Part shown: positions 4,031-20,570 of the stretch, one piece after another | Layout of the letters: every line of letters starts with the position of its first letter | Position numbering within the stretch: position 1 is the stretch's first letter | IMG/VR virus record: IMGVR_UViG_3300032304_000413 | Coordinates: 1-20,570 of that record | Source: a virus | Direction: 5' to 3' (one strand) | Length of the DNA: 20,570 nucleotides | Program-made: the position numbers and the translations under genes | Notes under the pieces: generated by a model | What the model was told of the DNA's origin: nothing | The model's input: only the letters and a program-made list of their open reading frames with translations | Databases searched by the model: none

Positions 4031-4519
4031 TTAGAATTCTAAGACTGCGTAATCGTAAGATAGTGTTAATTCGATTGTTGCAACCTCATTTGATGAAAAA
4101 TCTAATTCACCAAAGTTTGCTTGTTGAATAAATGCACCTTTTAAAGTCCATTGTTCAATCTTATCACCAACAGGTCCTAACAAATAGAAAGTAATATCTT
4201 TTTTATAGAAATCTGCATATCCACGTCTACCAGTAATCGATTCATGTCCTAAACGAATCCAATCCATTACCTTTTGTGCTGCAGAAGGTACAATTGGGTC
4301 ATACAATGTAATTGTTATATCTTGCCAATCACCTTTACCTTGTAATTTTCTTTTTACGTTGATATGGTCTAATGCAATTGTTTCAAATTGAATTGTAGGT
4401 CTGTTTGCCGCTTTTACAAGATATGAAGGGATAGTATCTATCTCCATCACATATCTATTTTTCATTTTAGGTTCGAAGTTCGTATAGAACATCTTGTCAA
4501 ACTCTAATATTTCTGCCAT
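4031..4519 (-). CDS. Tail tube protein (gp19-like)
   Basis: At 162 residues it is almost the length of T4 gp19 (163). In T4 this protein stacks in hexameric rings to form the inner tail tube through which DNA passes. Features seen here include an N-terminal MFYTNFEPKMKNRYVMEID, the strand-rich core GDWQDITITLYDPIVPSAAQ, the segment WIRLGHESITGRRGYADFYK, and a C-terminal beta pattern ending ATIELTLSYDYAVLEF. These are typical of the T4-like gp19 family. It follows the sheath gene after a 53-base gap that carries an ATATTTAT-type element. A leader with AAAAGGATAATAAA precedes the ATG. The strong terminator downstream closes the sheath-tube unit. Confidence 0.92.
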   Translation of the reverse strand: MAEILEFDKMFYTNFEPKMKNRYVMEIDTIPSYLVKAANRPTIQFETIALDHINVKRKLQGKGDWQDITITLYDPIVPSAAQKVMDWIRLGHESITGRRGYADFYKKDITFYLLGPVGDKIEQWTLKGAFIQQANFGELDFSSNEVATIELTLSYDYAVLEF

Positions 4520-4572: not shown

Positions 4573-6924
4573 TTATGCTGAGAAACTTGCTCCAGTTGGT
4601 AAGATGTTGAAATCTATTACGATAAATTCCGCTGTCTTAGCCGGTTGTAAGAAAATTTGTCCTGCTAATATGTTTCTATCAATTACATCAGGTGTGTTGT
4701 TACTTTCATCCATTACAACTTTAAAGGTATAAAGTCCTTGTCTTTGTTGTACTGATTCTAAGTAAGGGTTCACAGTGTTTAAGAATCTTTGTCTAGTTGT
4801 AGAAGTATTTTGTTCGAATACTAAGAAACGAGATGTTGATGCAACGAATTTTTTCAAGTTGATAAGTAATCTTCTAACATTGATTCTATCTAAAGCAGAT
4901 GCCTTATCTTGCAATGTTTTCTGTCCGAATGCTACAATACCTTGTCCAGGGAATGCCGCAATTGGGTTTACTTTGTTCTCATATAGAGTATCTCTTTCAG
5001 AGTGTGTTAATCTATTCAATACACTAACTGCTCCGGTAATACCACCTCTATTCAAACCCGCAGGTGCAAACCATTCAGCTGCTAATCTATCGTTAGAAGC
5101 GTAAACCGCTGGTAACAATGTAGAAGGTGGAACAGTTGTAAGTTTGTTTGTGTTACTATCAATTGTTTTCATCCAAGGATAGTAAGTTGCTACATAGTTT
5201 GAATCTACTGAATTTGCTTGCTCAGTTGCTTCAGTAATTGTATCATCATAATCGTTGAAATCAGCAATATAGAAACAATCTTGTCTTTCCTCAACCATAT
5301 CAATTGCTTTAGAAGTAACCGATGGGTGAAGGCTTCTTACAATACCAGGAGTTACTACCATATTGATATCATATTCATCAGGGTTAGATACTGCGTTGAT
5401 TGCTTTAGTATATGCTATTGAACCATTTTGTGATGCGTTTGAACAATTGAATCCTTGTGTATTTGAATTTCCCCAATCAGTATCACCAGCCTTAGCTTTT
5501 CTTACGGTTGGGTTCATACCATCAAATCCATATTGGAATCCTAATACAAATTGTCTTTTAACCATATCAGTTGATGCTGAACCAGTCATTACATATGATA
5601 ATTGTGAATCAAATGCGAATGCTACGTTAGCTCCAGCTACTGCTCCATCAGGAATTGGTTTTAAATATTGTTTGTTATCTATTGCTTTATATGCATCTTC
5701 AAAATCAAATCCAGAAAAATAAACTGGAGATGATGATGTGTTGTTTGCTGAACCTGTTTGGTAATTTACGGCAGGCACCCAATTTGCTTCTGTTGTAGAA
5801 TTTGTTTTAATTGGATTCACATATGCTGCATGTCCAAAAGGTGCTGCTGATATTGGATAAGAACCTGGTCCTAAAATATTAGAATTAGCATCTAATACAA
5901 CTACTCTTACATTGTTTGATTTATTTGAGTAATCACCAATTTCAGTTAATTTTCCATTAGAATCGATTGTTAACTTTCTATCACCAATTCTTCTAGCTAT
6001 ATAGTTAGGAGATGCAGGGTCTAAGTTAACGTTATTATATGTTTCAACTACACTCTTTCTTTTATCAGTATCACTAAATGAACGAATTGTTACAGTAAAT
6101 GTTGAATAATCGGTTGAACCATCTTCACCAGCCGCTTTTACATTAGAAATACCAACTTTAAATTTAGTATTATATAATGTACCATGTCCTATTGTTTCAA
6201 ATTTAAATAAGTTATATCTTTCACCACTAATTAATTGAGATACTACAATTGGAGTACTTGCTTCTTCTGCATCACCATACACTTGTGTTGGTAAATTAAG
6301 TTCGTATATTTGTACACCTTGTAGAGCACTATCATCTTTATATCCTAATGATGCACTTTCAAAATACAAATATCCATAAGCTGCTTTAGCACCGAATGGA
6401 GATTCACCAAATACGTCAGAAATATCGTTTGTAGCTTCTTGAAAAATTGATGCTGATACACTAGCTATTCCAGAACCAGAACCAATTAGTCCTGATATTA
6501 CAAATGAACCAGATACCGATGCACTACTTGTAATATTAGTAGAGCCATTTACAAATCCAACACCCTCATCACCAAAATTAGTTGAATATAAAACTCCAAC
6601 TAGTTTTCTGCCTTGAGAACCGGATGCTAATATACCCAAAGGTGCTGCCTGTGAGTAACCACCAATTCCGGCAACTCTTACGATTGTTGCTTGTCCAGCT
6701 TCTCTTAAATAATTTTGTACTGCGTATTCAGTATAATAAGTTCCATCAGGTGTTCCGAAGATATCTTCAAATTCTGATTGTGTTCTTACGATTGTTGGAA
6801 CGAATGCAGGTCCTTGTTTAAAAGGTCCTATAAATGCCGCTCCAATTTCTCCAACTCCTTGAGCTAAGAAGGATAGGTCATTTTCTCTTGTGAATACGCC
6901 AGGTGATACGATTCTTTCTGCCAT
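4573..6924 (-). CDS. Contractile tail sheath protein (gp18-like)
   Basis: This 783-residue protein forms the outer contractile sleeve around the tube. The N-terminus MAERIVSPGVFTRENDLSF, followed by GEIGAAFIGPFKQGPAFVPT and the segment SEFEDIFG, is characteristic of T4-type sheaths. The C-terminal part (about 645-783) carries the conserved GIVAFGQKTL, then RINVRRLLINLKKFVASTSR and FEQNTSTTRQRFLNTVNPYL, and ends FIVIDFNILPTGASFSA. The C-terminal domain is the part that interlocks with neighbouring subunits. It is longer than T4 gp18 (659). The extra length seems to lie in Ser/Gly-rich, variable surface domains at about 100-450 (for example SVSGSFVISGLIGSGSG). The ATG at 6924 follows an A-rich leader (GAAGAAATAAA). 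Confidence 0.95.
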   Translation of the reverse strand: MAERIVSPGVFTRENDLSFLAQGVGEIGAAFIGPFKQGPAFVPTIVRTQSEFEDIFGTPDGTYYTEYAVQNYLREAGQATIVRVAGIGGYSQAAPLGILASGSQGRKLVGVLYSTNFGDEGVGFVNGSTNITSSASVSGSFVISGLIGSGSGIASVSASIFQEATNDISDVFGESPFGAKAAYGYLYFESASLGYKDDSALQGVQIYELNLPTQVYGDAEEASTPIVVSQLISGERYNLFKFETIGHGTLYNTKFKVGISNVKAAGEDGSTDYSTFTVTIRSFSDTDKRKSVVETYNNVNLDPASPNYIARRIGDRKLTIDSNGKLTEIGDYSNKSNNVRVVVLDANSNILGPGSYPISAAPFGHAAYVNPIKTNSTTEANWVPAVNYQTGSANNTSSSPVYFSGFDFEDAYKAIDNKQYLKPIPDGAVAGANVAFAFDSQLSYVMTGSASTDMVKRQFVLGFQYGFDGMNPTVRKAKAGDTDWGNSNTQGFNCSNASQNGSIAYTKAINAVSNPDEYDINMVVTPGIVRSLHPSVTSKAIDMVEERQDCFYIADFNDYDDTITEATEQANSVDSNYVATYYPWMKTIDSNTNKLTTVPPSTLLPAVYASNDRLAAEWFAPAGLNRGGITGAVSVLNRLTHSERDTLYENKVNPIAAFPGQGIVAFGQKTLQDKASALDRINVRRLLINLKKFVASTSRFLVFEQNTSTTRQRFLNTVNPYLESVQQRQGLYTFKVVMDESNNTPDVIDRNILAGQIFLQPAKTAEFIVIDFNILPTGASFSA

Positions 6925-7518: not shown

Positions 7519-7908
7519 TTATCTATTGTTAAATAAAGTTTTTAGCATTTCTTTAATTTCAGAAATTTCATTATTTTGTTTATCAATGATAGTTTGTTGT
7601 TCTTTAATAGCCTCTACTAAAAGTGGAACTAATTTATCATAATCAATTGTTAGATAATTCTCACCACTCTTAGAACCTTTTATTTCTTTAGTTTCCGAAT
7701 CTATATCAGTATCGAACGGTGCTAAATGTACAATTTCAGGTAATATACTTTGAACTTCTTGAGCCGATAAACCCAATTGTACTTTGGTATCAGTATATCC
7801 TACTGAATGTGCTAACTCATTGTTTACATAGTAAAATCCATTTAATCGAGATACCTTTTCTAATGCATTTTCAATGTTACCAACTTTTGTTTTTAACCTT
7901 TCATCGGA
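7519..7908 (-). other. S74 intramolecular chaperone domain of the giant fibre
   Basis: This part of the fibre gene codes for residues 2117-2245. The motif SDERLK gives the cleavage Ser2117, Asp2118, and Lys2122 at +5. LGLSAQEVQSILPEIV and the final YLTIDYDKLVPLLVEAIKEQ are the conserved core and trimerising helix of S74 domains. All key residues are present, so cleavage is expected. Confidence 0.88.
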
Positions 7909-10900
7909 ATAGTATGCTATAATATTTCCCTGTGCAAATATCCAATCATAACAATATATGTTGTTATTAATGATATAGTTAAATCTAGATGTAGAATTAA
8001 AATCACCATAATATCCGGTATCGTGGTCATAGAAAATCGGAGAACGAATATCGTTGTTCACATACATACCATATGGTTGAATAGACATTCTATCATTACC
8101 TCTCCATCTCAAATACCATATACCATCTCCTTGAGCGTAATATATCCACCCATATGAGTTATCATGCAATCCAACATCACCACCTCTACCCATCCAACAA
8201 AATCTACTCGTAATACCATATCCTAACCATCCATTTCTACCACCACCATATGTAGCTATTGTTCCATAAGGGTTACCCTCACATTCTGGAGACCAGATAC
8301 CTCTACCATAAGACTCCCAATATACACCAGTACATCCTTGAGGTCTAAACCAGTTATTTGCTAATACATAGTGTAATTGGGATGTACCATCCATGTTAAG
8401 ATAGTATCCGGTATTATTATAATCGTAAATAAATGTACTTCTTAATTCATATGTATAAGTTCTATTTCCAGAATAGTGGTTAATATAAGTTTCATATCCA
8501 TTTTGACAATCTAAGTGTAAGTTACCATTAGTTGCTACAACAGATGCTTCACCTCCAGGTCTACCATTTGCTCCAACATAAAGATAGGCTCCCCAAGTTA
8601 AGTTAGGTCCATGTAGTGTACCTCCTCTGATTCTCAATGCAGCGTTTGAACCAGAGTTAGGGTCTATATAGTATCCGGTATCATTGGCATCGGAGTATGA
8701 ACCTGCGTACAACGTACCACCACTACCATCGTTACGGTCATGCATTGCAACAGTTGTCCAACCACCAGAATTTGGCCAAGATTGTCTAAACCTTAAGTTT
8801 CCTATTGGTCCACCAACCAATTGCCAACCATACGCACTATTGTATGCATTTGTATAGTGATGAGCCTGAACACCTACCCAGTGTGATGTACCAGATGGTT
8901 GGTTTGCTGGGTTTGACCATGTATCAATGAAACCAGAACCCCATGTCATTACAGAGTTAAAGTCTTCCGTACCCCAACCCATTATACCGGTCCAATAATC
9001 ACTATTACCAGTAATATCCGGTCTTTTCCAATTCGTTTTACCAGTTAGACCAGTTTGAGCCTTACCTCTAAGTGTTAATCCTTGCCAGTTACTTTCACCA
9101 TTGAAGTTACCATAATATCCAGTATCGTGGTCATAGAAAATCGGAGCCATCATATCACTTCTTGCCCAAATTCTAGAAGAAATTGCCGAAAATGTAGTAC
9201 CATAGTTCATCACTAATAATCCGTGGTCATTAAGAAATCCAGCTTGTCCTCCTGCATTTGGATGTGACCAAGATAAACCATATAAGTTACCAGGATTAGT
9301 ACCATCAATCGCTAATTTATAAGCGTTACCCATAGAAAATACACCCTGATATCTAACCGATGTATAAACACCAACAATTGATTGTCCGTAGTTATAATCT
9401 AAATAAATGTTTTCATTTCCATCAAGACGTAATCCACCATTTGCTACTACATAAGATAATCTAGCAGTTCCAGCTGGGTCTACATAATATCCAGTATTAT
9501 TTGAATCATAAAATATTGGTGCTCTTAATGAGTTACCTCCGGTTAAATAATCGTTGGCGTAAACAGTACCATTAGAATACCACTCCATTGTACTATAACG
9601 AGTACCAGATGTGTTAGTATTATAGAAGTATGTATTACCGCCAGTGTTAAATCTCATATAGGCTTGTCCCTGCCCTCCATTGATTCTACCAAATCCAGAA
9701 GGAGAACCACCATCGTTTTGTACGTTAAATCCAAAACCACCATCGTTCCAAGTTACACCAGGTTCAGATACCCACATTTGTAAATAAGATGGAGTACCAG
9801 TACCCATTTCACTACCAATAGCAGTAATTCTAAGTGTGGAGTTACCATGTCCACCAGCTACCTCTAATCTACCTCTCAAATAAGAACCACCATTAGGGTC
9901 TAAATAATATGTAGTATTATCACTATCATAAAATATTGGTGCTCTAAACGAACCATTTGCCCAAACAGTAGAACCATTATCCCATCTTAAATTCCAACCA
10001 ACTTGAGAAGTAGTACCACCATATCCCAATCTCCAATCATTTGCCGAAAAGTTCCACATCAAACCCCAATAGGTAGATGCATTATTCATAGCAAATCCGC
10101 CGGCATTATTATATCCTTGTGCTACAAATGAATTTCCATAATTTACGTTATGAGTATTTGATGTAATTACGTTGTAAATAGTTGTTCCAGCTGGGTCAGA
10201 ATAATATGCTGTGTTATCTCTATCATAGAATCTATATGCGTATAAATCTCCACCAAAAGTTACATTACCACCTATAAATGCCCCACCAGCAAATCCAAAA
10301 CGAGAATAAGTTGTACCATTGTTTCTTAATGCTAAATGATGGTCATATCCACTTCCATATTCATAACCCAATCCATACATATTACCAATTGGCCAACTTT
10401 CCCCAATTGTCCAAATTACTTTTGAAGCAGTACCAGTAGAATTATAGCTACCCATCATACCACCATCGCCACGAGCTACCAAATAGTTTGAAAACCAAAG
10501 TCTACCATTTTGCTCAGTTTGATTAAAGTTGTTTGTTCCTGCAAAATCACCATAATATCCGGTATTATCATTATCTCTAAATAATGGTGCTCTGAAATCA
10601 GTTGATGCAAATGCAATACCACTTTCATTTACTGAAAATAATTCGTTTGATGCTTTTATTGCATTACTACCTACTATAAATTTATTATCGGTATTATTAT
10701 TTGAATCAATACTTACACGCACATCACCAGCACTTGCCAAATATAATACGTTACCAGATGAATTACCTTGATGTATAACAACATCATATGTGTTATCTCT
10801 GTACATACCAGCATTTGTATCTCCTAAATAAAATGCTCCACCATTTCCACCAGAGTTTGCAATTACTTGATTAAATACTACGTTATCAGTTGTACGAACA

Positions 10901-13900
10901 TTCTGATTCATATTATAAGCGAATGCTTGGTCAACACTATTTAATATCTGTCTCCAATCACTATATGTTGATGCTCCAGTTCCAATTCTTGTCCACAATC
11001 TATGATTTGCCGTATATGCAATTTGCATTGGAGCTCCACCACTTAAATCGGTACTACTACCATAACTTCTCCAAAACATTTGTCCATTAAATGAGCCACC
11101 ATCATTTAATCCGTTTGTACTATTTGCTTTGAAATCAAAATAAACTCCAGCATTTTTACTTGATGGTGTATCATTTGTATTACGAGTATCATTCGAATCA
11201 ACAGCTTCTGCTCTATCCGCAGTACCAGTTAAATTTGCAGTTACATTTACAAAAGTTGGTGAATCAGTTGTTCTAAGATTTTGATTCATTAGATGAACTT
11301 CAGTTGCTCCTTGTCCGGTATCAACCGTAGAGAATGTAACTGCATCCGTAGTTCTTACGTTTTGATTCATCAAATGAACTTCAGTTGCTCCTTGTCCCGT
11401 ATCAACCGTAGAGAATGTAACGGCATCAGTTGTACGAACATTCTGATTCATTAAGTGAACCTCAGTTGCACCTTGTCCCGTATCCACAGTTGCAAACGTT
11501 ACTGCATCAGTTGTACGAATATTTTGATTCATTAGGTGAACTTCAGTTGCACCTTGTCCCGTATCTATCGTACCACTTATTGTTATATTACCTGCACTTA
11601 CTGAAAGGTTTCCACCACTTACAGTTACACCATTTGTAGCCGTAATCGTTGCATGAGTAACGTTATCAGTTGTTCTAAGATTTTGATTCATTAAGTGAAC
11701 CTCAGTTGCACCTTGTCCTGTATCTACAGTTGCAAATGTAACAGCGTCAGTAGTTCTAACATTTTGGTTCATTAAATAAACCTCAGTTGCACCTATACCA
11801 GTATCTATCGTACCAGTAAGAACTAAATTACCAGCTATATATGTGTTATCATCATGATACCACCTATCACTACCTTCATCCCAATAAAATTGTTTTGTTG
11901 CTGCATTACCTCTCTTAACTTCTATACCAGCATTTTCAGTTGGTGTAGTTCCTACTCCAATATCTGCGTTAAGTGTAATAATATTATCACCTACGTTAAG
12001 AGTTGTTGTATTAATATATGTTGTAGTACCACTTACAGTAAGGTCACCACTAATTGTAGCGTTACCAGTTACTGTCAATGTAGTACCATCGAATTTTAAA
12101 TTTGCTTCAACGGTTGCATTTGGTGCAGTTCCGTTTAATGTGATTACACCATTATCAGTTGTACCGGTTAATGATAATAATCCAGAAGTACCGGATGAAC
12201 CAGAAGTTCCTGAAGTTCCTGATGTACCACTACTACCGGAAGTTCCTGAAGTACCAGATGTTCCCGATGTTCCACTACTACCAGAAGTACCTGAAGTACC
12301 AGATGTTCCCGATGTACCAGATGAACCACTTACTCCCGATGTTCCTGAAGTTCCCGATGTTCCACTTGAACCAGAAGTTCCCGAAGTACCAGATGTTCCT
12401 GATGAACCACTTATTCCGGATGTTCCCGAAGTTCCTGATGTTCCAGAAGAACCACTTGCACCGGAAGTTCCTGATGTTCCTGATGTTCCAGAAGAACCAG
12501 AAGTTCCCGAAGAACCACTCGCACCTGAAGTACCAGAAGTTCCTGATGTGCCACTAGTTCCTGAACTACCAGCTGAACCACTTATACCAGAAGTTCCTGA
12601 TGAACCAGAAATTCCGCTTGTTCCTGAACTTCCATTTATACCAGATGTACCAGAGCTTCCATTTATACCGGATGTACCAGAACTTCCATTTATTCCAGAT
12701 GTTCCTGATGTACCAGAAGTTCCCGATGAACCTTGTACTCCACTTATTCCAGAAGTTCCACTTGTTCCTGAAATTCCAGATGTACCGGATGTTCCTGATG
12801 TACCAGATGTTCCAGATGAACCATTTGAACCAGATGAACCTTGTGCACCACTTGTTCCGGATGTTCCAGATGTACCAGAAGTTCCTGATGAACCAGATGT
12901 TCCAGAAGAACCACTTGTTCCTGAAGTTCCCGATGAACCACTTCCACCGCCGGCTCCACTTACTCCAGAAGTTCCTGATGTTCCAGATGTACCATTGATT
13001 CCCGATGTTCCATTAACACCCGATGTACCAGATGTACCCGAAGTACCTGCACTACCTGCACTACCAGTACCTCCACCAGCTCCTGTTATACCACTGGTAC
13101 CCGATGTACCAGAAGTTCCTGATGTACCACTTATTCCTGAAGTTCCCGAAGAACCACCACTTCCACCGGTACCACTAATTCCAGAACTACCCGCAGTTCC
13201 GGTTGAACCAGATGTTCCAGATGTACCAGAACTTCCTTGTGAACCAGAAGTACCTGAAGTTCCACTACTTCCATTTGAACCAGATGTTCCACTTGTTCCT
13301 GAACTTCCTGATGTACCAGATGTACCAGAAGAACCAGTACTTCCAGATGTACCTGAAGTACCCGATGTACCTGAAGTTCCTCCCGAACCAGAAGTTCCAT
13401 CAGTTCCACTTGTTCCCGAAGTTCCGGATGTTCCACTTGTTCCCGATGTTCCAGATGTTCCTCCACTACCAGAAGTTCCCGATGTTCCAGAAGTTCCAGA
13501 AGTTCCTGATGTGCCACTAGTTCCACTACTTCCTCCACTACCAGATGTTCCTGAAGTTCCTGAAGTACCCGATGTACCAGAAGTTCCTGATGTACCAGAA
13601 GTTCCTTCCGAACCGGTGGTACCAGATGTACCGCTTGTTCCAGAAGTTCCAGAAGTTGCTGCTGCTGTTTTTATACCAATTTTACCAGTTGATGGGTTAT
13701 AAACTAATACCTCATCGGTTGTTATATCTGATTTTAATGAACCAACACCAAATGATAATGAACCTGTAATACCAACACTTCCAGTAAATTCTTGCTTATC
13801 ATTTTGTGCATCACCAAATTTGTTACTTCCACTTGCATAAATTATTGATGATGAAATATATGTTGCGAATAATTCAGTTGTATTTATTTTTCCAGCTACA

Positions 13901-14256
13901 GTTAAATCAGTATTAACTACTAACCCTCTATTTGGAGAAATTATTGCGGTTGCTGAACCTGATTTTAATCTATCTAAATCACCAATTGCCGCTGCATTAA
14001 TATTAAACAAACCACCACCATCACCAATAAAAAGTGAAGAAGTAATTGAACCACTAATTTTTACATTAGAATTTATTTGAATCGAATTTGTTGGTGACCC
14101 AATCAAAGATGTTTGTATTCCAGAAGCAGAAAAATTTGCACCCACATCAATTGAATGAGATGAAAAATTAGCTACACTACTTCCACTTACAAATAAAGAA
14201 ATTTTGTCTTTAGTTTGTTGATTTAAACCGTTTGGGTTACCACCTAAATATTCCAT
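7519..14256 (-). CDS. Giant tail fibre with (GTS)n shaft, tandem fibre modules and S74 autoproteolytic chaperone
   Basis: This is a 2245-residue fibre protein. Residues 1-200 are a Ser/Gly-rich beta head with repeated SGS(I/L)-type motifs. Residues about 200-692 are a Gly-X-Y array, mostly GTS, with GSS, GIN, GIS and GAG variants. Residues 818-1005 hold six 27-residue repeats (consensus DTGQGATEVHLMNQNVRTTD). From about 1220 to 2090 there are eight modules built on APIFYDSDNTGYY-DP-G, rich in Trp, Tyr and Asn, the likely receptor-binding part. The C-terminus is an S74 (endosialidase-type) intramolecular chaperone. Ser2117 precedes DERLK, with Lys2122 at the +5 position that forms the Ser-Lys dyad in characterised members. 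This dyad should release a 129-residue C-terminal piece after trimer folding. It ends in a coiled-coil-like tail (KEQQTIIDKQNNEISEIKEM). It starts 12 bases after the preceding gene's stop. Confidence 0.93.
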   Translation of the reverse strand: MEYLGGNPNGLNQQTKDKISLFVSGSSVANFSSHSIDVGANFSASGIQTSLIGSPTNSIQINSNVKISGSITSSLFIGDGGGLFNINAAAIGDLDRLKSGSATAIISPNRGLVVNTDLTVAGKINTTELFATYISSSIIYASGSNKFGDAQNDKQEFTGSVGITGSLSFGVGSLKSDITTDEVLVYNPSTGKIGIKTAAATSGTSGTSGTSGTTGSEGTSGTSGTSGTSGTSGTSGTSGSGGSSGTSGTSGTSGTSGTSGTSGSGGTSGTSGTSGTSGTSGTSGTDGTSGSGGTSGTSGTSGTSGSTGSSGTSGTSGSSGTSGTSGSNGSSGTSGTSGSQGSSGTSGTSGSTGTAGSSGISGTGGSGGSSGTSGISGTSGTSGTSGTSGITGAGGGTGSAGSAGTSGTSGTSGVNGTSGINGTSGTSGTSGVSGAGGGSGSSGTSGTSGSSGTSGSSGTSGTSGTSGTSGAQGSSGSNGSSGTSGTSGTSGTSGISGTSGTSGISGVQGSSGTSGTSGTSGINGSSGTSGINGSSGTSGINGSSGTSGISGSSGTSGISGSAGSSGTSGTSGTSGTSGASGSSGTSGSSGTSGTSGTSGASGSSGTSGTSGTSGISGSSGTSGTSGTSGSSGTSGTSGTSGVSGSSGTSGTSGTSGTSGSSGTSGTSGTSGTSGSSGTSGTSGTSGSSGTSGLLSLTGTTDNGVITLNGTAPNATVEANLKFDGTTLTVTGNATISGDLTVSGTTTYINTTTLNVGDNIITLNADIGVGTTPTENAGIEVKRGNAATKQFYWDEGSDRWYHDDNTYIAGNLVLTGTIDTGIGATEVYLMNQNVRTTDAVTFATVDTGQGATEVHLMNQNLRTTDNVTHATITATNGVTVSGGNLSVSAGNITISGTIDTGQGATEVHLMNQNIRTTDAVTFATVDTGQGATEVHLMNQNVRTTDAVTFSTVDTGQGATEVHLMNQNVRTTDAVTFSTVDTGQGATEVHLMNQNLRTTDSPTFVNVTANLTGTADRAEAVDSNDTRNTNDTPSSKNAGVYFDFKANSTNGLNDGGSFNGQMFWRSYGSSTDLSGGAPMQIAYTANHRLWTRIGTGASTYSDWRQILNSVDQAFAYNMNQNVRTTDNVVFNQVIANSGGNGGAFYLGDTNAGMYRDNTYDVVIHQGNSSGNVLYLASAGDVRVSIDSNNNTDNKFIVGSNAIKASNELFSVNESGIAFASTDFRAPLFRDNDNTGYYGDFAGTNNFNQTEQNGRLWFSNYLVARGDGGMMGSYNSTGTASKVIWTIGESWPIGNMYGLGYEYGSGYDHHLALRNNGTTYSRFGFAGGAFIGGNVTFGGDLYAYRFYDRDNTAYYSDPAGTTIYNVITSNTHNVNYGNSFVAQGYNNAGGFAMNNASTYWGLMWNFSANDWRLGYGGTTSQVGWNLRWDNGSTVWANGSFRAPIFYDSDNTTYYLDPNGGSYLRGRLEVAGGHGNSTLRITAIGSEMGTGTPSYLQMWVSEPGVTWNDGGFGFNVQNDGGSPSGFGRINGGQGQAYMRFNTGGNTYFYNTNTSGTRYSTMEWYSNGTVYANDYLTGGNSLRAPIFYDSNNTGYYVDPAGTARLSYVVANGGLRLDGNENIYLDYNYGQSIVGVYTSVRYQGVFSMGNAYKLAIDGTNPGNLYGLSWSHPNAGGQAGFLNDHGLLVMNYGTTFSAISSRIWARSDMMAPIFYDHDTGYYGNFNGESNWQGLTLRGKAQTGLTGKTNWKRPDITGNSDYWTGIMGWGTEDFNSVMTWGSGFIDTWSNPANQPSGTSHWVGVQAHHYTNAYNSAYGWQLVGGPIGNLRFRQSWPNSGGWTTVAMHDRNDGSGGTLYAGSYSDANDTGYYIDPNSGSNAALRIRGGTLHGPNLTWGAYLYVGANGRPGGEASVVATNGNLHLDCQNGYETYINHYSGNRTYTYELRSTFIYDYNNTGYYLNMDGTSQLHYVLANNWFRPQGCTGVYWESYGRGIWSPECEGNPYGTIATYGGGRNGWLGYGITSRFCWMGRGGDVGLHDNSYGWIYYAQGDGIWYLRWRGNDRMSIQPYGMYVNNDIRSPIFYDHDTGYYGDFNSTSRFNYIINNNIYCYDWIFAQGNIIAYYSDERLKTKVGNIENALEKVSRLNGFYYVNNELAHSVGYTDTKVQLGLSAQEVQSILPEIVHLAPFDTDIDSETKEIKGSKSGENYLTIDYDKLVPLLVEAIKEQQTIIDKQNNEISEIKEMLKTLFNNR
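7990..10600 (-). repeat. Eight diverged fibre modules with the YD-x-NTGYY-DP motif
   Basis: Within the S74 fibre, copies of a motif like FRAPIFYDSDNTTYYLDP recur eight times at roughly residues 1225, 1342, 1440, 1580, 1704, 1855, 1942 and 2074. They are separated by about 90-150 variable, Trp/Gly/Asn-rich residues. Variants include IYDYNNTGYYLNMDG and IFYDHDTGYYGDFN. DNA identity between copies is low, so these are old duplications. They probably form beads along a trimeric shaft. Confidence 0.85.
11242..11805 (-). repeat. Six 81-bp tandem repeats (27 residues each)
   Basis: The unit DTGQGATEVHLMNQN(V/L/I)RTTD followed by (A/N)VTFATV occurs six times, at residues 818-844, 845-871, 898-924, 925-951, 952-978 and 979-1005. 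A 26-residue Ser/Gly insert separates copies 2 and 3. Two neighbouring copies are exactly 81 bases apart at matching sites, and their DNA is nearly identical. A seventh, decayed copy (NMNQNVRTTDNVVF) lies near 10870-10915. Confidence 0.92.
12181..13656 (-). repeat. Collagen-like (Gly-Thr-Ser)n array of the S74 fibre
   Basis: About 1.47 kb with a nine-base period encode roughly 490 residues of Gly-X-Y, dominated by GTSGTS. GSS, GIS, GIN, GAS and GGG/GSGG variants are interspersed. Proline is absent, unlike animal collagen. Synonymous third positions vary from unit to unit. Because of the repeat, several other frames stay open on both strands. Confidence 0.95.
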
Positions 14257-15375: not shown

Positions 15376-16278
15376 TTAAGTAAATGTTGGTGGTATTGAT
15401 GCGAAGTTTGTTAAACCGGTGCAATTTCTAAATGCATCAGTTCCAGCAGGTGTTGGTACTCTATTCCATAATTCAGGAGCAGTACCTACTAAAGCATTTG
15501 AAGTCGAACTCATATTATAAACTTGTGAGAATGTTGTTACCGCTGTATTAAATGTAAATTGTAATACATTTGTTAATGCTCTACAATTTCTAAATGTACC
15601 AGAGAAACTTGTTACATTGATATTTAGGTCAAATATAGTTGATGGTACGGAAGTTAAACTCGCACAAGCAAAGAAACAAGATGCAAAAGATGATACATTT
15701 ACTGCAATATCAAATAATCCAGTTGGTACAGTTGTTATCGTATTAATTGTTGCAAATGCACTGGCAAATGATGTTACGTTAGGTGAAAAATCAAATATAT
15801 CTGCCGGTATGGATGTTATAGCTGTACCATTCATAAAATTTGAAAAACTTAATATTTCATTTAAGCCATCATACCCACCAACTGCACTTAATGATGCACT
15901 ACTTGGTATAGAGGTTATATTTATACACCCATAAAAATTTAATGTCCTCAATCCTACTGTACCAAATTGTACAATGCTTGTTATTAAACTTCTTATTCCT
16001 ACATTATTATTAACTTGAAATCCTGGCATAAATCCACTAATAGTAACTGTATAAGTTCCAGCTGAAACATATGTATGTATTCTATCTACTGAAGATGATG
16101 ATGTTATCAACGGTGATGCACTACTATCTCCCCAATTTATATTCAATTGTGGTGTTAGTCCACCATAATCGGTAATTGGACATGTAAATACAGTATTAGC
16201 CGATGTGGTTGTAATTTGAAACACAAACGGAAATGCTTGTGTTGAATCTGATTCTGCTAGTCTTCTTGCTATTCCCAT
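15376..16278 (-). CDS. PKD-like plus leucine-rich-repeat tail adhesin candidate
   Basis: This is a 300-residue protein. Residues about 16-82 look like a PKD-type beta domain (LNINWGDSSASPLITSSSS, then HTYVSAGTYTVTISG; the WGD and HTY-GTYTVT signatures are typical). From about residue 85 there are BspA/DUF285-like leucine-rich repeats with a 27-residue period, clearest in three consecutive units of form T(S/T)(I/V)P--(I/L)FD---NV(T/S)SF---F---. The last part (ELWNRVP, then FRNCTGLTNFASIPP) keeps the repeat pattern. No signal peptide or anchor is seen. It is placed between a giant fibre and a fibre chaperone, four bases after the fibre stop. A receptor-binding or fibre-tip role is therefore likely but inferred. 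Confidence 0.75.
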   Translation of the reverse strand: MGIARRLAESDSTQAFPFVFQITTTSANTVFTCPITDYGGLTPQLNINWGDSSASPLITSSSSVDRIHTYVSAGTYTVTISGFMPGFQVNNNVGIRSLITSIVQFGTVGLRTLNFYGCINITSIPSSASLSAVGGYDGLNEILSFSNFMNGTAITSIPADIFDFSPNVTSFASAFATINTITTVPTGLFDIAVNVSSFASCFFACASLTSVPSTIFDLNINVTSFSGTFRNCRALTNVLQFTFNTAVTTFSQVYNMSSTSNALVGTAPELWNRVPTPAGTDAFRNCTGLTNFASIPPTFT

Positions 16279-16282
16279 AATA

Positions 16283-19200
16283 TTAACTTAAATTTTTAGC
16301 TATTGTAAATCCATACCAATTTGTTCCACCATCAAATGTATAAAATACTAATACATCTTCACCGGATGATGTTAATACAGGTTGAATACCACCTGCCCAA
16401 TTAACCGTTGCCGGCCATGTAATTACATATGCTCCTGCATTTACAGTTAATAATGTAAATCCAAATGCTTTACCAGCAGGTACGTTGGTAAATGTTACTG
16501 TGGCTGTTGCGTTAAATTGTCTTCTAAAATTATTTGCAGTTGAACAATCTATTGCAACACTACCACCGGTTGATAAATTATTATAAATTTCTCTATACGA
16601 TGTTGCTTCCAAATATGTACTGGCATCCAATCCACCCGTCAATGTAATATCACCCGTTTGTGTTGTATTACCAACTATTGTTAACGTAGAACCATCATAT
16701 GTTAAATTACTTTCAACATTTGCTTGTGTAGGAACATCCTGATATGTGAGTAATCCATTATTAGTCGCACCATTTAGTGGAAATCCATTTGTACCAGATG
16801 TTCCAGATGTTACACCCAACGCGGATGTACCAGAACTTCCATTTACACCAGAAGTTCCCGAAGTTCCAGATGAAAAACCTGGAGCGTTTGTACCACTTGT
16901 ACCAGATGTTCCGGTTTGACCAGATGTTCCAGAAGTTCCGGATGAAAAACCAGGAGCGTTTGTACCACTCGTACCCGCACTTCCATTACTACCACTTATT
17001 CCCGAAGTACCCGATGTACCACTACTAAATCCTGGTGCGTTAGTACCGGATGTACCAGATGAACCACCAGAACCACCAGTTCCTTGTGCTCCAGAAGTTC
17101 CACTGCTTCCAAAAAAAGTTCCATTTACTCCGGATGTACCAGAAGAACCAGAAGTTCCCGAAGTTCCATCGGTTGCTGAGGAACCAGAAGTTCCATTACT
17201 TCCGGAAGTACCAGATGTACCACTACTTCCAAAGAATGTTCCATTTAATCCAGATGTACCAGATATTCCTGAAGTTCCGGATGTTCCATCGGTTGCCGAA
17301 GAACCAGAAGTACCACTTATACCAGAAGTTCCTGATGTACCACTACTTCCAAAGAAAGTTCCATTTACTCCGGATGAACCAGAAACTCCAGATGTTCCTG
17401 ATGTTCCAGAAGTACCAGATGTTCCCGATGTGCCACTTGTTCCACTTGTTCCACTACTTCCAAAGAATGTTCCATTTACTCCAGATGTTCCAGAAATACC
17501 AGAAGTTCCGGATGTCCCGGATGTTCCGGATGTACCCGAAGTTCCATCTGAACCAGATATACCTGAAGTTCCACTACTGCCAAATAAAGTTCCATCTAAT
17601 CCGGATGTTCCTGAAATTCCTGAAGTACCCGAAGTTCCAGATGAACCATTGATTCCAGAAGTTCCATCGATTCCTGAAGTACCCGAAGTTCCACTACTAC
17701 CAAATAAAGTTCCATCCAATCCAGATGTACCAGAAATTCCTGAAGTTCCACTTGTGCCAGAAGTTCCCGATGTACCCGATGTACCACTTTCACCACTCGT
17801 ACCACTACTTCCAAAGAACGTACCATTTAATCCCGATGTACCACTTGTCCCATCGGTACCAGATATACCAGAAGAACCACTAATACCGCTTGTTCCAGAT
17901 GAACCAGATATACCGGAAGTTCCACTACTTCCGAAGAATGTTCCATTTAATCCTGATGTACCACTTGTTCCATCAGTTCCCGATATACCAGATGTACCAG
18001 AAGTTCCATTACTACCAGATGTTCCCGAAGTTCCATTTATACCAGAAGTACCACTACTACCAAAGAAAGTTCCATTTACACCCGATGTACCATTAATACC
18101 TGATGTACCACTCGTTCCCGAAGTTCCACTAGTACCAGATGTTCCCGATGAACCATCGATGCCCGATGTACCACTACTTCCAAAGAATGTTCCATTTACT
18201 CCGGATGTTCCTGAAGTTCCTGAAGTTCCGGAAGTACCACTCGTACCGGATGTCCCATCACTACCAGAAGTACCAGAAGTTCCTGATGTGCCATTTATTC
18301 CTGAAGTTCCCGATGTACCCGAAGTTCCATCAGTACCAGTAGAACCAGAAGTTCCCGATGTACCATTACTACCCGAAGTACCAGAAGTTCCATTACTTCC
18401 AGAAGTTCCTGATGTACCACTCGTTCCACTTGTACCCTCACTACCATCAGTACCACTTGTGCCCGATGTACCAGATGTACCATCACTACCGGAAGTTCCC
18501 GATGTACCATTTATACCAGAAGTTCCCGAAGTTCCCGATGTACCATCAGTTCCAATTCCGCTTGTACCAGAAGTTCCTGATGTGCCACTTGTGCCATCAC
18601 TACCACTCGTACCGCTTGTACCAGAAGTTCCCGATGTTCCACTTGTACCTTCACTACCATCAGTTCCAGAAGTACCAGAAGTTCCCGATGTACCATCACT
18701 ACCAGAAGTTCCAGATGTACCAGATGTACCACTTGAACCGGAAGTACCACTTGAACCGGAAGTACCAGATGTACCCGAAGTTCCTGAAGTTCCTGAAGTT
18801 CCATCTGAACCAGATGTTCCTGAAGTTCCAGATGTTCCGCTTGTTCCTGAACTTCCAGATGTACCAGAAGTTCCAGAAGAACCATCACTTCCTGAAGTTC
18901 CTGAAGTACCACTTGTGCCCGAAGTACCATCCGAACCATTCGTTCCGGATGTTCCTGAAGTTCCTGAAGTACCTGAAGTACCAGATGTACCAGATGTTCC
19001 CGATGTACCAGAAGCTCCACTACTACCAGAAGTTCCCGAAGTACCTGATGTACCATCTATACCGGAAGTTCCAGATGTTCCGGATGTTCCTGATGAACCA
19101 GATGTTCCCGATGAACCACTTCCACCACTTGTACCGGATGTTCCTGATGTTCCTGATGTACCAGAAGTTCCGGAAGAACCACCGGTACCCGTACTACCAG

Positions 19201-20570
19201 AAGTTCCACTACTTCCCGCAGTACCACCACTACCCGCAGAACCCGATGTACCCGAAGTACCACTACTTCCCGAAGTTCCGGATGAACCTCCACTACCACT
19301 TGTTCCAGAAGAACCACCACTACCAGAAGTTCCACTAGTTCCCGATGTACCACCACTTCCGGATGTTCCACTGGTTCCCGAAGTTCCCGATGTACCAGAT
19401 GTTCCTGATGTGCCTGATGTTCCAGAAGTTCCCGATGTTCCTGATGTACCTCCACTTCCGGATGTACCGGATGTTCCGGATGTACCAGATGTTCCTGAAG
19501 TTCCTGAAGTTCCTGAAGTTCCTGCTGAACCGGAAGTTCCTGATGTGCCTGATGTTCCGGATGTTCCCGATGTTCCTTCACTACCCGTTGTTCCGGATGT
19601 TCCCGATGTACCAGAAGTTCCTGATGTTCCCGAAGTTCCTGATGTTCCCGAAGTTCCTGATGTTCCCGAAGTTCCTGATGTTCCCGAAGTTCCATCTATA
19701 CCACTAGTTCCCGAAGTTCCTGAAGTTCCCGATGTACCAGATGTACCATCCACTCCACTGGTTCCGGAAGTTCCCGATGTACCAGAAGTACCTGAAGTTC
19801 CAGATGTACCTCCTGAACCATCAGTTCCCGATGCACCAGATGTACCAGATGAACCTTGTACACCTGCTATACTTCTTCTTTCTAATCTTTTATTTGCCGA
19901 ATTCCAAACAACTACATCCTCAGCTGAGCCTGATACTAAATTTCCTAAAAATACACTACCACTAACACCTAAACTACCACTAATTGTGAGAGATGCATTA
20001 ATATTACTATCTTTGTTTACTTGTAAGAATGATGCCGTATTTACACCTTCCGCATTTAAAGCGTATAAAGCGTATGATGCAGTAATTGCCAATGAAGCAG
20101 TACCAACAAACATTGATGCGGTTTGGGAATTCTGAATAAAGTTTGCAGAATTTATTGCACCACCTCCACCTAATATAGTTACTAATACACCATCAGAACC
20201 CGATGCTACTACATCAACACCGGAGCCAGTAAAATGAATTTTTCCTACTTGTGCTTTTACTAATGAACTCGTTTGATATACACGTAATTCAGTACCACTA
20301 CCTTGTCCTGCATTTAATGCGTATGAAGCTGTTAATGCAAAAGATGAACTCACTGCTCTAAACACACTCATTGAGGAAGTTTGGTCATTTCTTACATACG
20401 CATTTGCGTTTGCCAATGATGCGGATAACGATACCAATGATGCCGAATCAAATCCAGTCACCGCATCCGCTAATAAAGCTTTTCTAGCAAATGATGCTGA
20501 TAAAACCTCACCAAAAACTCTATTTCCACCAATTGTACCACTTATCAAAGAACCACCACTACCTATTACA
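16283..20570 (-). CDS. Giant collagen-like tail fibre, 5' end outside the window
   Basis: The frame is open to the right edge, so the true start lies beyond 20570. At least 1428 residues are visible. The first ~230 residues are Ser/Ala/Gly-rich with ALTASYAL and SGSLGVSGSV motifs and end DVVVWNSANKRLERRSIAG. About 1,030 residues of Gly-X-Y follow, mostly GTS, with GSD, GIN and GID variants. Ten breaks of the form NGT(F/L)FGSSG lie in its C-terminal half, followed by three TNAPGFSSG breaks. The C-terminus (about 170 residues) has LTYDGSTLTIVGNTTQTGD and then a beta domain ending VITWPATVNWAGG... and GGTNWYGFTIAKN. That module is common at the ends of phage fibre and appendage proteins. It has no S74 domain. 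The stop lies four bases before the LRR gene. Confidence 0.9.
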   Translation of the reverse strand, partial: VIGSGGSLISGTIGGNRVFGEVLSASFARKALLADAVTGFDSASLVSLSASLANANAYVRNDQTSSMSVFRAVSSSFALTASYALNAGQGSGTELRVYQTSSLVKAQVGKIHFTGSGVDVVASGSDGVLVTILGGGGAINSANFIQNSQTASMFVGTASLAITASYALYALNAEGVNTASFLQVNKDSNINASLTISGSLGVSGSVFLGNLVSGSAEDVVVWNSANKRLERRSIAGVQGSSGTSGASGTDGSGGTSGTSGTSGTSGTSGTSGVDGTSGTSGTSGTSGTSGIDGTSGTSGTSGTSGTSGTSGTSGTSGTSGTSGTSGTTGSEGTSGTSGTSGTSGTSGSAGTSGTSGTSGTSGTSGTSGTSGSGGTSGTSGTSGTSGTSGTSGTSGTSGTSGTSGSGGTSGTSGTSGSGGSSGTSGSGGSSGTSGSSGTSGTSGSAGSGGTAGSSGTSGSTGTGGSSGTSGTSGTSGTSGTSGGSGSSGTSGSSGTSGTSGTSGIDGTSGTSGTSGSSGASGTSGTSGTSGTSGTSGTSGTSGTNGSDGTSGTSGTSGTSGSDGSSGTSGTSGSSGTSGTSGTSGTSGSDGTSGTSGTSGTSGTSGSSGTSGSSGTSGTSGTSGSDGTSGTSGTSGTDGSEGTSGTSGTSGTSGTSGSDGTSGTSGTSGTSGIGTDGTSGTSGTSGINGTSGTSGSDGTSGTSGTSGTDGSEGTSGTSGTSGTSGSNGTSGTSGSNGTSGTSGSTGTDGTSGTSGTSGINGTSGTSGTSGSDGTSGTSGTSGTSGTSGTSGVNGTFFGSSGTSGIDGSSGTSGTSGTSGTSGTSGINGTSGVNGTFFGSSGTSGINGTSGTSGSNGTSGTSGISGTDGTSGTSGLNGTFFGSSGTSGISGSSGTSGISGSSGISGTDGTSGTSGLNGTFFGSSGTSGESGTSGTSGTSGTSGTSGISGTSGLDGTLFGSSGTSGTSGIDGTSGINGSSGTSGTSGISGTSGLDGTLFGSSGTSGISGSDGTSGTSGTSGTSGTSGISGTSGVNGTFFGSSGTSGTSGTSGTSGTSGTSGTSGVSGSSGVNGTFFGSSGTSGTSGISGTSGSSATDGTSGTSGISGTSGLNGTFFGSSGTSGTSGSNGTSGSSATDGTSGTSGSSGTSGVNGTFFGSSGTSGAQGTGGSGGSSGTSGTNAPGFSSGTSGTSGISGSNGSAGTSGTNAPGFSSGTSGTSGQTGTSGTSGTNAPGFSSGTSGTSGVNGSSGTSALGVTSGTSGTNGFPLNGATNNGLLTYQDVPTQANVESNLTYDGSTLTIVGNTTQTGDITLTGGLDASTYLEATSYREIYNNLSTGGSVAIDCSTANNFRRQFNATATVTFTNVPAGKAFGFTLLTVNAGAYVITWPATVNWAGGIQPVLTSSGEDVLVFYTFDGGTNWYGFTIAKNLS
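17100..18202 (-). repeat. Ten-copy super-repeat of NGT(F/L)FGSSG breaks in the Gly-X-Y array
   Basis: On the plus strand, copies of CCACTACTTCCAAAGAATGT (with small changes) start at 17100, 17220, 17340, 17451, 17571, 17691, 17802, 17922, 18051 and 18171. The spacings are 120, 120, 111, 120, 120, 111, 120, 129 and 120 bases, each a multiple of nine plus three. Each copy codes for G(V/L)(N/D)GT(F/L)FGSSG, which holds one extra residue relative to Gly-X-Y. Confidence 0.93.
19614..19693 (-). repeat. Perfect 18-bp tandem repeat, 4.4 copies
   Basis: On the plus strand the unit GAAGTTCCTGATGTTCCC occurs four times without a mismatch, followed by eight more bases of it. It codes for GTSGTS pairs. 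Most other units in the array differ at synonymous sites, so this block looks like a recent slippage or unequal-crossover expansion. Confidence 0.9.

Follow-up and report, generated by a model that had tools for sequence, protein, structure and literature searches.

Collagen interruptions, of which Bella (2014) is said to have taken a census, occur in the non-fibrillar collagens of animals. Type IV collagen, C1q and mannan-binding lectin carry breaks with one residue too many or too few, which are associated with bending and with a locally looser helix: the collagen stalk of C1q is reported to be kinked by an additional residue, and peptides of mannan-binding lectin to bend at a one-residue GQG break (PMC9898670). 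The fibre described here has the same one-residue surplus and deficit. The animal examples given there involve a single bend-forming break, whereas our fibre repeats one cassette many times and adds weaker breaks halfway between the copies (PMC9898670).

Closer in setting are the collagen-like fibres of phages and prophages (Pfam family PF01391), such as EPclA-D of the E. coli O157 prophages, which share with our fibre long Gly-X-Y arrays placed between non-collagen domains. The phage collagens described so far rely on Pro and on charged residues; the collagen domains in that description contain no Phe or Tyr and span at most 322 residues against about 1030 in our array, and the C-terminal domain is at the tip, as it is in our fibre (PMC3368898). 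In contrast, the array reported here has almost no Pro and no basic residues, and it carries 6–13 copies of a single aromatic +1 interruption (one residue in surplus) at a near-constant step. In a survey of titles and opening abstracts, mostly outside the subscription journals, no description was found of a series of aromatic cassettes, of a split into smooth and jointed zones or of weak breaks in mid-block. A further likeness is to the long tail fibres of T4-like phages, with which our fibre has in common the myovirus setting, a baseplate wedge connector (in the relative L085) and a Peptidase_S74 chaperone on a second fibre. In T4, each long fibre is assembled from several proteins and has a beta-rich shaft, whereas here one chain of about 3500 residues, the length found in L085, would hold connector, collagen-like shaft and tip.

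The DNA analysed, which is called the window throughout, is a 20,570-base record from a virus of bacteria and contains contractile-tail genes. Gly-Thr-Ser arrays are found in two of its minus-strand genes, both of which match the Pfam collagen profile (Table 1). The product of the gene at the window edge is by profile a collagen-like phage fibre: Gly occupies every third place, and the curated PF01391 profile is matched with an E value of 1e-106 (349 bits, cut-off 27.2). Its array comprises residues 235–1260 of the visible frame (1026 residues). In the near relative L085, the open frame has 3501 codons and the array begins only at residue 2305, so that about 2070 N-terminal residues of the window's fibre probably lie outside the window. 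The N-terminal part of full-length L085, whose counterpart in the window's own gene lies beyond the window, matches phrog_677, "baseplate wedge tail fiber protein connector" (5.5e-57), and from this family label we infer that the base of the fibre sits on the baseplate. Myovirus tail genes for sheath and tube are present in the window near the fibre. Opposite the Gly-Thr-Ser arrays, antisense open frames of 901 codons (17430–20135, +) and 520 codons (12140–13702, +) repeat VPEVPD; these are most likely incidental, since the codons of the repeats yield no stop when read on the opposite strand.

Table 1. Features of the window, in order of position
Feature	Position	Strand	Details
Tail tube	4031-4519		phrog_4542, 2e-32
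Tail sheath	4573-6924		phrog_23, 6.6e-70
Second fibre gene	7519-14256	-	Peptidase_S74 chaperone
Second fibre array	12184..13650	-	489 residues, break-free
300-residue protein adjoining the FF fibre	15376-16278	-	weak phrog_9915 match, no Pfam match
Collagen-like fibre gene	16283..20569	-	1428 codons fall inside the window; frame runs past its edge, 5' end absent
C-terminal domain	16286..16771	-	162 residues; related domains in tail-fibre proteins of many phages
Zone 3, array end	16787..17110	-	three GTNAPGFSS and one GTSALGVTS breaks, nine residues each, register kept
Zone 2 of array	17111..18193	-	ten FF breaks, spacing 37-43 residues
FF break 10 (GTFF)	17111..17122	-	
Weak mid-block break GSSATD	17168..17185	-	Gly to Ala, register kept; 19 residues after FF break 9
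FF break 9 (GTFF)	17231..17242	-	
Weak mid-block break GSSATD	17288..17305	-	Gly to Ala, register kept; 19 residues after FF break 8
FF break 8 (GTFF)	17351..17362	-	
FF break 7 (GTFF)	17462..17473	-	
FF break 6 (GTLF)	17582..17593	-	
FF break 5 (GTLF)	17702..17713	-	
FF break 4 (GTFF)	17813..17824	-	
FF break 3 (GTFF)	17933..17944	-	
FF break 2 (GTFF)	18062..18073	-	
FF break 1 (GTFF)	18182..18193	-	
Zone 1 of array	18194..19864	-	residues 235-791; a single -1 break, no FF breaks
-1 break G-I in zone 1	18554..18559	-	residue 670
Visible non-collagen part before array	19865..20569	-	235 residues; in 76 viral loci, 57-91% identity

The array is interrupted by ten breaks, called FF breaks here, at each of which the step from one Gly to the next is four residues instead of three and the triplets resume on both sides, which is what defines a collagen interruption. 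Eight copies read GTFF and two GTLF. They begin at residues 792 to 1149 and are spaced by 40, 43, 40, 37, 40, 40, 37, 40 and 40 residues, that is, by 13, 14, 13, 12, 13, 13, 12, 13 and 13 triplets, each plus one residue. The ten +1 breaks of the original prediction are therefore real and its motif, NGT(F/L)FGSSG, holds overall, but the first residue is N in eight copies and D in two, which gives [ND]GT[FL]FGSSG. Its rule that all spacings are 9n+3 bases is correct but trivial, because one residue added to perfect triplets forces this result. What is not trivial is that one motif is repeated and that its spacing varies so little: the spacings have a standard deviation of 0.60 triplet, and when the inner eight breaks were placed at random with the outer two fixed, none of 200,000 placements was as even. 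The breaks are also confined to one part of the array, as had been claimed (residues 792–1152 of 235–1260), and the 489-residue array of the second fibre has none.

Support for these breaks came from relatives. A motif scan of viral contigs yielded at least 119 stretches, and the scan matches were pooled with a small number of annotated regions and with 46 loci retrieved through the C-terminal domain; among the matches listed, this pool comprises 95 distinct arrays that are at least 150 residues long, some with FF breaks and some lacking them. In the 42 distinct arrays with at least five FF breaks, again among the matches listed, 406 of 416 +1 breaks read G-T-[FLYM]-F, so that the first break position keeps a large hydrophobic residue and the second keeps F; the remaining ten are GTNF (5), GTFN (4) and GTFV (1). 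The flanks are nearly fixed. In 364 distinct contexts, selected by a filter that already demanded a large hydrophobic residue in the first break position and an aromatic one in the second, S is found at −4 (0.99), L/V/F at −2 (0.89), D/N at −1 (0.99) and S at +5 (0.92) and +6 (0.95), while T at +1 and clean flanking triplets are nearly invariant as well. The distance from one FF break to the next is 28–52 residues in 310 of 324 distinct intervals, exactly 37, 40 or 43 in 209 and about double in 12. Block number was compared among relatives, as the original prediction had proposed, and ranges from 6 to 13 FF breaks per array in 50 distinct complete arrays.

Since the first scan had required the motif, retention was retested with the 235 pre-array residues alone. 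All 76 viral loci picked by this N-terminal similarity (57–91% identity) have an array at the expected place. FF breaks are present in all 33 distinct arrays of these loci, and 32 have six or more; the exception, L244, is short (690 residues) and has three. As these arrays were chosen independently of the breaks and every one keeps them, the comparison of sequences excludes both an assembly error and idiosyncratic decay, and the claim that the pattern is not random decay is borne out. The two outcomes that had been named as damaging, breaks irregular or lost in homologues and an error of assembly, did not occur: the breaks are neither lost nor irregular, and the same pattern recurs on many separate contigs. 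The conserved elements are the motif, a spacing of close to 40 residues and a location within the array's C-terminal part.

Tandem Repeats Finder describes positions 17091–18229 as a 120-base unit in 9.6 copies with 70% matches, and the pattern could accordingly be a recent, functionless tandem duplication of this unit, an explanation to which we give hardly any credence. Copies inside the window differ by 15–35% over 66 bases around the break, yet the copies at the same place in two relatives are closer: mean similarity is 0.86 for same-place against 0.75 for off-diagonal blocks in L121, and 0.89 against 0.77 in L133. Block orthology is weaker in L072 (0.84 versus 0.77) and L007 (0.85 versus 0.78). 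It is hardly detectable in L125 (0.79 versus 0.75; best match on the diagonal for 2 of 10 blocks), which makes some turnover likely and is to that extent a point for duplication. Because same-place blocks are closer than other-place blocks, most blocks are old and individually retained, with some turnover. At the codon level, comparison of the window with L121 and with L133 gave 41 synonymous and 0 non-synonymous changes in 124 Gly codons in each case, and 21 and 26 non-synonymous changes, respectively, in 156 other X/Y codons. The twenty FF codons have 2 and 4 synonymous and 2 and 1 non-synonymous changes, the F codons keeping F or L; the L/V and D/N pair is more variable (7 and 3 of 20). Together with the retention of breaks in all 33 independently chosen arrays, this contradicts duplication as a full explanation, although birth of the blocks by duplication followed by selection is compatible with the data.

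Seven further breaks, which are absent from the original prediction, interrupt the array: one −1 break (GI), two of the form GSSATD and four nine-residue breaks that keep the register (GTNAPGFSS three times, GTSALGVTS once) at 16805–17047 (−), close to the C-terminal domain. Relatives carry GTTPPNFTS, GTSFFGVTS and similar sequences, and the nine-residue breaks thus form a second conserved class. The weak breaks are Gly-X-Gly steps (−1) and Gly substitutions, and 87 of 100 fall at 0.35–0.65 of the interval between FF breaks. Their median position is mid-interval in 34 of the 38 distinct arrays having any, and 12 of 50 arrays have none. This centring is partly trivial because the flanks of the cassette are always clean.

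The weak breaks bear on the glycine register, the movement of which had been taken to be the point of the design. This part of the original prediction is not supported, since in 57 of 324 distinct FF-to-FF intervals the net shift differs from +1. No other break is present in 228 intervals, which are +1 by construction, and 39 hold other breaks and are still +1; owing to −1 breaks, the net shift is zero in 42 and two in 15. Because intervening −1 breaks change or cancel it in this way, the register shift itself is not conserved. In a homotrimer, a cumulative shift would in any case be without consequence beyond the break itself, as all three chains carry the same insertion.

Whether the array forms a collagen helix at all has to be considered in light of its composition. 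It contains 3 Pro, 0 Lys and 0 Arg in 1026 residues, T, S and G account for 87%, and 200 of 311 triplets counted are identical. The stabilising features of described prokaryotic collagens, which are Pro in X/Y and charged pairs, are not found, which weakens the case for an ordinary collagen helix but leaves the PF01391 profile match untouched. Because an array with 3 Pro and no Lys or Arg is unlike the described phage collagens, a stable collagen triple helix is not assured, and a trimeric triple helix is a putative assignment. Small Gly/Thr/Ser triplets are also compatible with polyproline-II/polyglycine-II bundles. The array could be another Gly-rich fold of this kind, with the FF cassettes at turns or strand joints, as suggested by the near absence of imino acids and basic residues and by a model of the FF region that sets short strands at the cassettes. 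That model, predicted as a single chain, is of low confidence (mean pLDDT 34.7, with 147 of 152 residues below 50) and carries no evidential weight, and the conserved length and position of the smooth and broken zones would fit a linear fibre better; we therefore regard a bundle as distinctly unlikely. The C-terminal domain, in contrast to the FF region, gave a beta-rich model with a pLDDT of 81 and high confidence from about residue 60 on. Its best VIA-align match is a phage capsid spike at Z 7.9, which is below 8 and may reflect a common arrangement only, and sequence relatives of the domain are found in fibre proteins of 357 phage records.

If the chains do form a trimer, the FF cassettes could be staples or register pins instead of joints, stopping whole-triplet sliding and stiffening the rod. 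Aligned knots near the C-terminal end, where folding would start, would then fix the chain register. This alternative, which we rate as unlikely but not negligible, would account for hydrophobic conservation at three places of the cassette, for a position of the FF zone next to the C-terminal domain and for the need of a pin in an array so uniform and so poor in Pro, Lys and Arg. It has more difficulty with zone 1 and the second fibre, which manage without FF cassettes. In addition, a register key, in which unequal spacings would penalise a wrong chain register, was rejected: across 25 distinct spacing patterns, a fraction of 0.50 of the breaks still coincides in the most favourable wrong register, compared with 0.39 in random draws of the same spacings.

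A short, strongly conserved motif with variable spacing between copies would also be expected of docking sites, whether for a decoration protein, for the neighbouring 300-residue protein or for the second fibre. The gene of the 300-residue neighbour has relatives in 48 viral loci. One triplet corresponds to a turn of about 36–51 degrees in the helix, and as spacings vary by single triplets, a docking face would turn around the fibre. Docking is in our estimate highly unlikely. FF arrays are present in 41 of the 48 loci (36 complete, 5 partial or cut at the contig end).

The architecture of the array was also compared among relatives. The FF-free zone before the first FF break measures 510–654 residues in 30 of 31 complete arrays and the whole array 978–1158 residues in 49 of 50 distinct complete arrays, the values for L038 being 295 and 639; the array of L144 has 693 residues and runs into a stop and an unrelated frame upstream. 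The longest unbroken run in zone 1 reaches 552 residues. Smooth and broken zones trade length (permutation p 0.0003, with n = 15 at a thinning threshold of 80% identity), and this relationship weakens on further thinning (p 0.04 with n = 9 at 70%; p 0.12 with n = 6 at 65%).

A special length ruler in the FF array was considered and rejected. The first comparison, of 14 distinct genomes out of 48 loci, set FF arrays of 1016–1052 residues against second arrays of 321–501 (log-length rate ratio 126), but its control was flawed in that only the largest array of the second fibre was counted, which is split in several genomes, and unrecognised second fibres were omitted. A pairing of 22, with a CV of 0.118 for FF arrays and 0.216 for the second fibre, has the same largest-array flaw. 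With the second fibre found by homology and counted whole in 30 distinct genomes, it is about as steady as the FF array when lengths are compared in residues (ratio 0.65, p 0.87), and on a relative scale it is only somewhat more variable (ratio 2.6, p 0.006). The conclusion is therefore modest: both fibres keep characteristic lengths, with no special constraint on FF length shown. A loop-out idea, in which the four break residues add no length, was likewise dropped; regression of total length on the number of +1 breaks in 39 arrays of 990–1075 residues gave a slope of 4.3 (p 0.001), as this idea would predict, but independent contrasts over the tree gave it no support (p 0.24 and 0.28). The second fibre has repeats of its own. 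Five QGATEVHLMNQN[V/L/I]RTTD repeats, of which four follow one another at steps of 27 residues, lie at about 11313–11715 (−), and seven APIFYDxDNTGYYxDP-like repeats precede the Peptidase_S74 domain at about 8034–10581 (−).

Searching isolate-phage DNA with the FF region returned 28 records, of which only a 735-kb record (two copies) covers most of the query; a periodic FF series was absent from stretches of three of the 28 records and from three sheath neighbourhoods. In genome_contigs, 13 stretches contain the motif pattern, but the frames inspected in them hold no collagen array. The 735-kb uncultured phage LR756501 (L183) has, in a fibre-like frame, three +1 hydrophobic breaks in the same setting as those of the window fibre, GSSGVD-GSFL-GSSG, GSSGVD-GTFY-GSSG and GSSGKD-GNFL-GSSG, two of which are 79 residues apart. 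Long arrays nearby have no such breaks, and the 25-kb stretch read contains no periodic series. Very long Gly-X-Y arrays of 711, 735, 767, 788 and 921 residues are found in the same stretch. Because this distant phage has three similar +1 breaks, the cassette may be more widespread than the present clade.

The explanation that we prefer, and to which we assign slightly less than an even chance, is that of a baseplate-anchored trimeric fibre that is smooth near its base and has hydrophobic-packed joints every 11 nm or so further out. The gene would encode a long tail fibre in which three identical chains lie side by side as an extended Gly-X-Y helix of about 1030 residues; at a helix rise of 0.286 nm per residue, this would be about 0.3 micrometre long. 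The half near the base would be a nearly unbroken (Gly-Thr-Ser)n rod, and the outer part would be split by the conserved cassette G-T-S-G-[L/V]-[D/N]-G-T-[F/Y/L/M]-F-G-S-S-G-T-S, which has 14–16 residues, every 40 residues or so (about 11 nm). At each cassette the surplus residue would break the helix simultaneously in the three chains, and the hydrophobic side chains, three from each strand, could pack into a compact greasy knot that keeps the chains joined but still allows the rod to bend or rotate. Softer breaks halfway between the knots would add flexibility. The outcome would be a segmented, trimer-locked but flexible arm bearing a putative receptor-binding domain at its C-terminus.

The cassette is read as a packed joint because a floppy hinge would need no invariant Phe with two more hydrophobic places. 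The proposal that each break is a joint or a trimer-locking point fits the hydrophobic conservation (406 of 416), the C-terminal placement and the retention of the breaks. Two observations stand against the packed joint. If knots were required to keep (GTS)n chains joined, the smooth zone 1, with runs of up to 552 residues, and the 489-residue array of the second fibre should need them too, and the nine-residue breaks of zone 3 fall outside the account.

Collagen interruptions have usually been studied singly, whereas here one cassette occurs six to thirteen times per array in dozens of natural sequences. The smooth zones of the same protein provide built-in controls, so that the effect of a +1 interruption on a triple helix is directly testable. 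The cassette also offers a genetically encoded way of putting joints into a long, thin protein rod, and the array raises the question of how a proline-free Gly-Thr-Ser sequence of around a thousand residues stays folded. For the viruses themselves, a tentative and, on balance, somewhat doubtful picture is that of a clade of uncultured myoviruses with a nearly proline-free Gly-Thr-Ser fibre of about 0.3 micrometre, in which smooth and knotted zones are set separately. If true, the distal part of the fibre would carry knots at near-constant steps with soft points halfway, and the knot would be a small trimeric non-collagen element unseen so far in solved collagens.
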